Source: an uncultured Desulfovibrio sp. (GTDB taxonomy: Bacteria > Desulfobacterota > Desulfovibrionia > Desulfovibrionales > Desulfovibrionaceae). From it: a DNA stretch of 64,000 nt. The position numbers were made by a program, and so were the translations under genes. How positions within the stretch are numbered: position 1 is the first letter of the stretch; the number at the start of each line of letters is the position of its first letter. The stretch is from the NCBI GenBank assembly GCA_905235595.1, contig CAJOMG010000009.1, positions 44,845 through 108,844 of the forward strand, written 5' to 3'. The notes below the pieces were generated by a model that searched no databases, was not told the origin of the DNA, and was given only the letters and a program-made list of their open reading frames with translations. Below, piece after piece: positions 478 to 40,456 of the stretch.

Positions 478-3400
478 ATCTCCTCCTGTTCATCCCCAAG
501 AAAATCCTTACCTGCATTTGGATCGCTCTTGCCTTGAAGCTTGAGCGAAATGGTCATGATCATCTTGAAGAAAAAAGGTACAAATAACGTGGCAATACAG
601 GTCGCAGCCAACATGCCGCCAATGACCGCCGTGCCTATCGCATGGCGGCTGTTGGCACCAGCACCCGTACTGATTGCCAGCGGTAACACACCAAGAATGA
701 AGGCAAGACTCGTCATGACAATGGGTCTGAAACGCAAACGGGATGCTCTCATGGCTGCCGCATCCAGACTACGCCCACCGCGCCAAGCTTCTACGGCGAA
801 TTCCACGATAAGAATCGCGTTCTTTGAAGCCAAACCAATAAGCGTGACGAGTGCCACCTGAAAATAGACATCGTTGGAAAGTTCACGCAGCCATGTGGCT
901 ACAAAGGCTCCAAATACTCCAAAGGGTACGGCTGTGAGCACGGCCAAGGGCAATGACCAAGACTCGTATTGCGCTGCCAGAATAAGAAAAACCATAACAA
1001 TAGCCAGTGCAAAGATCATCAGAGTATCTGCACTAGCCAGCTTTTCCTGCAGTGACGAACCCACCCAGCCAAGGGCACAGTCTGCCGGCAGAACAGCACT
1101 GGCAGCTGCCTCCATTTGCTTAAGGGTGTCACCCGAGGCGAAACCGGGTGTTGGCGTTCCCATGAGGTGTGCCGCCGGAAAAGCATTGTACCGCTCCACA
1201 ACCTGTGGGGCTGTACGTCTTTCCAGAGTCATGATTGCTGTGAGCGGCACCATCTCACCTTTGCTATTTTTCACATAAACATCCCTGAGGGATTCCGGCA
1301 GAATACGGTAGTCTTCTTCGGCCTGCATACGCACCTGAAAGGTGCGGCCCAAATAGTTGAAGTCGTTCACATAGGTTTGGCCGAAAGCAGCGCCCATGGC
1401 TTCATAGACATCGGAAATGCTAATGCCCATGTCCTTGCAACGCTCACGATCCAGATTGGCATAGAGCTGCGGCGCCCCGGTAGTGAAAAGATTGCGCACC
1501 ATGCCGATGGCAGGGTACTTGGGCGAACCGTCCTCATTGCGGGAGGTCGCCTCAGCTATTACGGCATTGGCATATCTTTCCAAGTCATAGAGCGTGCCCG
1601 CGCCACGCATCTGTATGAAACCCTCAAAGCCGCCCGTAGTACTCATGCCCTGGATGGGAGGCGGTGAAAAGGAAAGTACAAAGGCTTCGGGCTGCCTAGC
1701 ACTGATTGTCATAACCTTAGCTACCACGTCAGTATCAGACTGACCGGGTTCGGTTCTCTCCCTCCAAGGTTTCAACGATGTGAAAAAAGTGGCGTAGTTG
1801 CTCTTGATAGAAAATGAGGTAATATCCAGGCCGTCAATCACGGCTACGTCATTCACGCTGGGCAAAGCCATAGAATAGTCTGTGATAATCTTACCCACAG
1901 CCTTGGTACGTGGAATAGAAGCACCGTCTCCCAATATCGCCAAACCTATAGTATAACCCTGGTCTTCATTTGGCACTAATCCTGTAGGAACGCGCTCCAT
2001 AATAAACACTACAGCGCCTATCATGCAGAAAAAAAGTACCATGGCCCTCAGTGCAGAATTTTTAATAAAGCGCACAGCCCGCAAGTAGCCGTGAGTTATG
2101 CGCCCGAATATGTAATTGAAGCTAATAAAAAATTTAGGCGGTACATAGCCGTGGTGATGCTGCTTAAGCAATAAAGCACAGAGAGCAGGGGTAAGTGTCA
2201 ACGCTACAATACCCGAGAGCACTACAGAAACAGATATAGTAATAGCGAACTGCTTATACATCTGGCCTGCAAGGCCACCCATGAACGACACAGGAATAAA
2301 CACCGCACATAGCACCAGCACAATAGCAATAACCGGCGCCGTCACCTCGTTCATGGCCTTAGCCGTGGCCTCCTTGGGGGGCAAATGTTCGGAGCTCATA
2401 ATACGCTCCACATTCTCCAACACCACGATGGCGTCATCTACCACAATACCAATGGCCAACACCAAGCCAAAGAGAGTAAGCGTATTGATGGAATAGCCCA
2501 AGGCATACATGCCCGCAAATGTGCCAATGACTGATACAGGTACTGCAATGCAAGGGATAAGCGTGGCCCGCCAGTTTTGCAAAAAGATAAAGACCACGAG
2601 AAACACCAACACCATAGCCTCAATGAAGGTGTGGATGACCTCTTTAATGGATTCCATCACATAGTCATTGGTATCCACAACCAGCTTATAGGTCATGCCA
2701 TCAGGCATGGTTTGAGCGATTTCATTGAGACGCCGGCTTACACGCTCGCCGGTTTCGATTGCGTTTGCACCGGGCAAAAGGAACACGGCGCCCATGCGCG
2801 CGACGTTGCCGTTGAACGTCGATTCCACAGAGTAGTCTTTCCCGCCCATTTCAATCCGCGCCACATCCCTGAGGCGCAGCATGGCACTGTTCTCTTCGGC
2901 ACGCACGATGATATTGCCAAATTCCTCCGGTGTGACCAAACGCCCCTGCGTGTCTATTTGCCAAGAGAGTTGTGTTTCGTCGCCCACCGGATTATCTCCC
3001 AGGCGCCCGGGCGCGAACTGCGAGTTCTGCTCACGGATGGCAAGACCGACCTCCGCAGGGGTAAGGCCGTACTTGGCGAGCTTGTCCGGCTTAAGCCAGA
3101 TGCGCATGGAATAATCCATATAGCCGAAAACCGAACAATCGCCTACGCCAGGTACACGCTTGAGCTCGTCCACAACATTCACGTTCATCCAGTTATGGAT
3201 GTATACTGCGTCGTAACGGCCTCCAGGAGACATAAAGGCAAATATCTGCAGTATGGCCGGGGACCGCTTGACAACGGTGATACCTTGTCGTCGTACATCC
3301 TCGGGCAAGAGCGTCTGGGCAAGATTCACTTTGTTGTTAACGTTGACTAAGGCCATATCTGGATTGGTACCCAGAGCAAAAGTCACGTTAATGCTGCCGG

Positions 3401-39538: not shown

Positions 39539-39603
39539 TTTCTTTTGACAAACAAAGCGCATACCGCGCTTAAGAAAACCTGCTTTCTATGGGGGAGGAC
39601 AAC

Positions 39604-40167
39604 ATGAGCAACCAACTCGATTACGAAATCAACAAGGAATTGGGCGAATGCTACCTGTTCATGGGTGACTTTGACAAGGCCGAGGAATACTACCGTAAGG
39701 CCGCCGGTGACAACAGCCAGTGTGCGGCACCCTATCTGGGACTGGCCACTGTGGCAGTGCAGCGCTCACAGCTGGACAAGGCACTGGTATTGTACCAAAA
39801 GGCAGCCAGTGTAGAAGAAACTGACAAGGCTCTGTGCGGCATTGGCCTCGTGTACATGGAACAGGGCGAACATGCGATGGCATTTGACTACTTTGCCCGT
39901 GCGCTTGACAAGTCGTGCGAGAACATCGTGGCCCTTAATTGCCTCGTGCGTGAAAGCTACCAGCTTGGTTGCGTAGAAAAGGTGTTGCCCTATCTAGAAG
40001 CTACCCTTGAGGCTGGCACAGAAGCCGAAGCCGTCCGTGTGACGCTGGCTGGCTGCCTCATTTATCTTGGCCGTGGCGCGGAGGCCAGGGAACATCTGGA
40101 GAGTGTGCTGGGAGCCAACCCCGCCAACCAGAGTGCCAAGGAACTTTTTGACACCATGGCTGCCTAG
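39604..40167 (+). CDS. TPR-repeat protein
   Basis: GECYLFMGDFDKAEEYYRKAAGDNSQCAAPYLGLATVAVQRSQLDKALVLYQKA TPR pattern. Confidence 0.88.
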   Translation: MSNQLDYEINKELGECYLFMGDFDKAEEYYRKAAGDNSQCAAPYLGLATVAVQRSQLDKALVLYQKAASVEETDKALCGIGLVYMEQGEHAMAFDYFARALDKSCENIVALNCLVRESYQLGCVEKVLPYLEATLEAGTEAEAVRVTLAGCLIYLGRGAEAREHLESVLGANPANQSAKELFDTMAA

Positions 40168-40202
40168 GCATGGTCGCCAGACCGGCCACAGCCTGTACAT
40201 AC

Positions 40203-40319
40203 TCCCCTCCCCACATGATTTTCCGGCCCTGGATAGGTGCCGGGGCCGGGAGATCATATAAAGGGGAACCCAAAGACGAACAGCTTTTCCGTTATGCCCA
40301 GCTGGGGCAAGGCATACGG
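40203..40319 (+). ncRNA. Candidate structured RNA / structured 3' UTR (class unknown)
   Basis: 6-bp outer helix, 15-bp helix with two G-U wobbles (40215-40229 / 40243-40257), second hairpin CCGTTATGCC/GGCATACGG, followed by an intrinsic terminator. Confidence 0.4.
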
Positions 40320-40330
40320 CGAAGGCTTTA

Positions 40331-40360
40331 GAAAACCCCTGAACATTCAGGGGTTTTCTT
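40331..40360 (+). terminator. Intrinsic terminator
   Basis: GAAAACCCCTGA-ACAT-TCAGGGGTTTTC perfect 12-bp stem followed by TT. Confidence 0.85.
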
Positions 40361-40456
40361 GTTGGCATTGACGTAGCCTGCACTGAAGGCTATGTGAATG
40401 CCCCGGCATGTTGCCGGAAAGATTCAAGTGCCGGCTGCCGGTATACGGAGCTCCCC

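Follow-up and report, generated by a model that had tools for sequence, protein, structure and literature searches.

Few bacterial 3'UTRs are known to pair with the ribosome binding site of their own mRNA, and those of icaR and hbs have been described as lacking conservation between close relatives (PMC7821165, PMC3868564). In Staphylococcus aureus, the sequence UCCCCUG in the 3'UTR of icaR pairs with the Shine-Dalgarno sequence UAGGGGG of the same mRNA, and both repression and RNase III cleavage were demonstrated for this pairing (PMC3868564). Other staphylococci lack the icaR motif (PMC3868564, PMC7821165), and the 3'UTR of Bacillus subtilis hbs is likewise reported as not conserved in relatives (PMC7821165). 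A further kind of self-control is represented by OppZ and CarZ of Vibrio cholerae, autoregulatory 3'UTR-derived sRNAs that are processed by RNase E and inhibit the translation of their own transcripts (PMC7398697). The question so far has been whether long-range closure between UTRs is ever a long-lived regulatory design.

The locus considered here is a TPR gene within a stretch of 64,000 nucleotides from an uncultured Desulfovibrio sp. (the window). As in icaR, a C-rich 3'UTR motif is complementary to the Shine-Dalgarno sequence of its own mRNA, and the pair CUCCCCUCCCC with GGGGGAGG has nearly the same letters. The gene and the phylum are different and the two RNAs are not homologous, so the likeness lies in the mechanism, which is predicted here. 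Unlike in icaR, compensatory changes have preserved the pairing in the TPR mRNA over several families, and a covarying hairpin stands behind the leader. The TPR 3'UTR resembles OppZ and CarZ in its predicted base pairing with its own transcript, as judged by complementarity and compensatory change only, but the pairing is explicable within one molecule, whereas OppZ and CarZ are processed by RNase E. With hbs it has in common that the two UTRs of a single mRNA pair over a long range; in hbs this gives protection from RNase Y, whereas in the TPR mRNA the Shine-Dalgarno itself is paired. A literature search, with most subscription journals outside its reach, returned no paper on this Desulfovibrio 3'UTR. 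Judging by the papers searched, the kind of mechanism is already known, and its compensatory conservation over several families, combined with the covarying hairpin and its conserved apical loop, is new.

Structured RNA in the 3'UTR of a TPR gene

A strongly structured RNA of no nameable class had been proposed downstream of the TPR gene in an earlier, sequence-only reading of the window, and this proposal was borne out. All of the helices described are present (Table 1), and the plus-strand segment 40190-40370 folds at -88.4 kcal/mol, compared with -57.0 ± 4.3 kcal/mol for 200 dinucleotide shuffles (z = -7.3), none of which folds as well. No Rfam 15 family reached its gathering score in the window or in 20 relatives, and the matches below threshold in the window were chance matches only. 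A repeat or mobile-hairpin family was ruled out by the single copy. The terminator was not flagged by a simple terminator scan, probably because its T run sits inside the stem.

Table 1. Positions of the TPR gene and of the RNA features of its transcript in the window
Feature	Position	Strand	Basis
TPR Shine-Dalgarno GGGGGAGG	39591-39598	+	complementarity to 3'UTR leader; whole-mRNA pairing
TPR gene, 187 aa, single copy (ATG 39604, TAG 40165-40167)	39604-40167	+	Pfam TPR families
C-rich leader CUCCCCUCCCC	40202-40212	+	near-invariant in relatives; own Shine-Dalgarno complementarity; folding
Outer helix TCCCCT/AGGGGA	40203-40208 / 40262-40267	+	leader with AGGGGA arm
Main hairpin, about 14-18 bp, conserved apical GG motif	40215-40257 (arms 40215-40232 / 40240-40257)	+	fold; covariation; R1 match
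Second hairpin CCGTTATGCC/GGCATACGG	40282-40327 (arms 40282-40298 / 40311-40327)	+	fold
Intrinsic terminator, perfect 14-bp stem and T-rich tail, end of TPR 3'UTR	40330-40363 (stem arms 40330-40343 / 40346-40359)	+	fold

The TPR protein matches general TPR models only (Pfam). In 167 of the 199 family genomes it has a single match, and it is 99% identical in a goat-rumen Desulfovibrio assembly, the closest named relative. A DNA search recovered conserved copies of the RNA element from most genomes in the genus. A covariance model, for which diverse members were used, was run on the 199 family genomes and matched 105 of them, covering 28 of 44 genera, with one strong copy in the window's own genome. 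In all 68 genomes that combine a model match at E <= 1e-5 with a listed TPR coordinate, the element follows the TPR gene on its 3' side, on the same strand, at a distance of 11-250 nt (median, 38). The genes downstream of the segment in the window are DUF486 and TauE, but among 74 relatives the downstream gene is DUF486 in 5, purH in 21, and neither in 48. As the element is always 3' of the TPR gene and the downstream gene varies, the structured RNA belongs to the upstream TPR gene as its 3'UTR. Control of DUF486/TauE by a riboswitch or a terminator-based leader, which the sequence-only reading had envisaged and which would fit the order of hairpins, terminator, and DUF486 in the window, is contradicted by this synteny and by the conservation of the element at the TPR gene everywhere, and is extremely improbable.

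Two further motifs were observed around the gene. L089, L090, L093, L097, L106, and L111 share a conserved CTTGCC ... TCTGGCAC motif in the interval that separates the element from purH, often followed by a short CCTCGC/GCGAGG-like repeat; where the TPR gene is followed by purH, the motif precedes purH and may be its promoter or leader. A GCGCATACnGCGC-like motif is located about 35-45 nt before the TPR start (39558-39571 in the window) and recurs in L005-L033 of the genus.

The arms of the main hairpin are 83% complementary in the window, and the R1 model matches positions 40198-40258 with 68.3 bits. Across 47 distinct sequences, both sides had changed in 11 of the 14 pairs in an alignment fitted to the covariance model, and so biased towards structure; an independent MAFFT alignment had already given 9 of 14. 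In the fitted alignment, both-side changes occupied 62 cells, compared with 8.9 in shuffles, and 97.6% of cells were paired; sliding one arm destroyed the covariation signal, the slid controls being far lower. This comparative evidence indicates that the main hairpin is selected as structure, and the strong compensatory change among homologues, together with the zero matches at the Rfam gathering threshold, leaves the proposed structured RNA standing.

Other parts of the element are kept less widely. The GGGGA arm of the outer helix, or a near variant, is retained in most sequences of the window genus but not in all other genera, and the second hairpin is found with altered sequence in the closest relatives (L006-L008) and is missing from more distant ones. 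Outside the window genus, the apical loop of the main hairpin is GCUGGCGC in many genera; much of the window genus has GGCNGGYGYC. The 5' arm of the main hairpin is preceded by the near-invariant leader, the conservation of which is unexplained by the hairpin.

Matched change of the leader and the TPR Shine-Dalgarno

The leader is complementary to the TPR gene's own Shine-Dalgarno, about 600 nt upstream, a pairing that falls outside the coordinates of the sequence-only reading and was missed by it. The window's Shine-Dalgarno reads GGGGGAGG, most of the genus has TGGGGAGGA, and nearly all other genera have GGAGGGGA; each version is the complement of part of the leader. The pairing comprises 7-13 bp in most lineages. 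With leader windows picked by eye, the TPR Shine-Dalgarno and its own leader gave a mean of -19.7 kcal/mol in 21 genomes, whereas 66 controls with a comparably strong match to 16S rRNA averaged -12.1 kcal/mol, 7.6 weaker. Just 2 of 316 start regions of neighboring genes matched the leader as well as the TPR Shine-Dalgarno did, and the window's whole genome has only 12 GGGGAGGA-N2-8-ATG sites. Pairing of a gene's own Shine-Dalgarno with its own 3'UTR was also stronger for TPR (-17.2 kcal/mol) than for control genes with strong sites (-13.6 kcal/mol; Mann-Whitney p = 2.5e-7).

Across other genera and three further families of the order, a different Shine-Dalgarno goes with a correspondingly different 3'UTR (GGAGGAGAUU/AAUCUCCUCC, GGAGGAGGAAC/GUUCCUCCUCC, and GGAGGAUGCC/GGCGUCCUCC). 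Matched pairs within the family include GGAGGAGATT/AATCTCCTCC in L117 and GGAAGGAGTC/GATTCCTTCC in L094. Outside the family, they are GGAGGAGGAAC/GTTCCTCCTCC in L271, GGAGGATGCC/GGCGTCCTCC in L274, CAGGGAGAAGG/CCTTTTCCTTG in L275, GAGGAGAGACCAT/GTGGTTTCTCCTC in L277, GGAGGAGAA/TTCTCCTCC in L282, and GGAGGAGAT/ATCTCCTCC in L302, and L289 also has a compensatory pair. The matched changes reach past the GGAGG core (AAC/GUU and AUGCC/GGCGU). An apparent compensatory match in L193 (TCCTCGT at +3) was discarded, the true leader there being unchanged.

When own pairs were compared with swapped pairs over unselected 120-nt 3'UTRs, own pairs were equalled in 0 of 20,000 permutations (n = 59, z = -6.9) and, for the other families alone, in 2 of 20,000. 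The window's family alone gave a modest signal (5 to 1,151 of 20,000, depending on the measure) because most genera share one sequence, which also accounts for the p value of 0.026 obtained initially, when 260-nt 3'UTRs and free-form duplexes were used in the permutation. In later permutations, other families were added and similar Shine-Dalgarnos were collapsed: p was below 0.0002 in every draw with about 33 distinct sites, the median p was 0.0004 with about 21 sites, and with about 12 very distinct Shine-Dalgarnos the median was 0.009 and some draws were not significant. The sequences are related, and the permutations therefore overstate the count of independent events. Since both ends have often changed together, the message probably closes on itself.

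Losses provide natural experiments. In two Mailhella genomes (L088 and L121), the element is missing and the sites are AAGGGG; a third Mailhella genome retains both parts. L184 has two tandem copies of the TPR gene (1671-2231 and 2501-3061); the first copy has the element and the G-rich Shine-Dalgarno TGGGGAGGA, and the second has no element and the Shine-Dalgarno TGCGGAGGA. Judged from these sequences, both are cases of correlated loss of the element and the matching Shine-Dalgarno. In the related L192, L193, L195, and L199, leader and hairpin are unchanged and the Shine-Dalgarno, GGACGAGGAGCAC, can form only about 4 bp with the leader; this mismatch is either a recent loss or a sign of further leader targets. 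Neither leader nor matching Shine-Dalgarno was seen in the order members L269, L273, and L286-L288. In L306, L307, and L308, which belong to one genus (g22), the best match is a divergent TPR homologue (38-40% identity) that has a AAGGATAC-type start region and is without the element.

Predicted closure of the mRNA and a proposed latch

In whole-mRNA partition functions, at least 5 Shine-Dalgarno bases were predicted to pair into the 3'UTR in 74% of 61 TPR mRNAs, versus 15% of 114 control genes of similar length. In the window, the pairing is predicted in the folded full-length mRNA: the first C-run of the leader (40202-40207) pairs with Shine-Dalgarno positions 39592-39597 at a probability of 0.4-0.7, varying with the transcript ends assumed, and the second C-run (40208-40212) pairs with the local GGGGA at 40263-40267. 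An alternative leader pairing joins CCUCCCC (40206-40212) to GGGGAGG. The folding model indicates that the two C-runs can serve the outer helix and the Shine-Dalgarno pairing at once, and both runs may be kept in the window genus because each serves one of these two helices.

The reading that we consider probable is a conserved 5'-3'UTR latch that restrains translation of its own TPR mRNA across the Desulfovibrionales. Its computed support consists of the position of the element, the hairpin covariation, the compensatory evolution of leader and Shine-Dalgarno, and the predicted closure. In such a latch, the C-rich leader would pair with the Shine-Dalgarno of the same mRNA and close the message end to end, and the strong hairpin behind the leader, together with the terminator, would keep the leader positioned and shield the 3' end. 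The paired Shine-Dalgarno would block 30S binding, and a ribosome-free mRNA would stay shut, giving negative self-control; by analogy with S. aureus icaR, the duplex may also be cleaved by RNase III. The latch could act within one molecule or between molecules, including a released 3'UTR sRNA, with the same pairing either way. A more elaborate version, in which the latch is order-wide and ancient and the adjacent hairpin and its conserved apical loop are a sensor that opens or closes it upon binding of the TPR protein or another factor, is doubtful; if true, the two ends of a single bacterial mRNA would together make up a conserved regulatory class.

Several families of one order have retained the same design, and the changes at both ends of a message of about 700 nt are matched. 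The locus yields ready-made compensatory pairs for direct tests, as well as a covariance model, and argues for adding UTR-to-UTR pairing within one gene to searches for conserved RNAs. It also points to an uncharacterized TPR protein, the dose of which is evidently worth controlling.

Alternative readings of the pairing

Leader, hairpin, and terminator might instead be released by RNase processing or from an internal promoter as a trans-acting 3'UTR-derived sRNA, the anti-Shine-Dalgarno leader of which silences a number of mRNAs whose ribosome sites are G-rich, including its own mRNA. This reading is quite possible, at somewhat less than an even chance. A stable 5' hairpin and a terminator would suit such an sRNA, autoregulatory 3'UTR sRNAs are known from OppZ and CarZ (PMC7398697), and the leader is conserved beyond the need of an 8-bp match to its own Shine-Dalgarno. 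It is also retained in L192, L193, L195, and L199, where the gene's own site no longer matches, and some of the dozen GGGGAGGA-ATG sites in the genome precede conserved genes. Nevertheless, the leader tracks its own Shine-Dalgarno even in the changed lineages, which indicates that its own mRNA is the main conserved target, and no unlinked strong copy of the element was found in the family genomes or in the window's genome. No sigma-70-like promoter was found on the plus strand, but the scan is uninformative about an sRNA promoter because it also missed any TPR promoter. Judged by eye, the GGGGAGGA-ATG sites at L147, L152, L153, and L155 look like starts of genes for an ATP synthase b-type subunit, a YkvA-like small protein, a universal stress protein, and an NrfD/HmcC-like membrane subunit; these genes are possible trans targets of the leader, sampled by sequence pattern only.

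End-to-end pairing could also stabilize the TPR mRNA by shielding its 5' region or its 3' end from ribonucleases, much as a 5'-3'UTR interaction shields the hbs mRNA of B. subtilis from RNase Y (PMC7821165). The strong hairpin and terminator suit end protection, but the core of the Shine-Dalgarno is itself paired in nearly all genomes and this should hinder ribosome binding, so that stabilization is an unlikely account.

Set against the latch and both of these alternatives is chance combined with shared ancestry, whereby the leader would be a generic CU-rich or anti-Shine-Dalgarno-like stretch that matches any strong ribosome site. Every Shine-Dalgarno resembles GGAGG, one leader is common to most family members, and the within-family permutation is weak on one measure. 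This explanation is nonetheless very unlikely in view of the poorer pairing of other genes' comparably strong ribosome sites, the matched changes beyond the GGAGG core, and the correlated loss in Mailhella and in L184.
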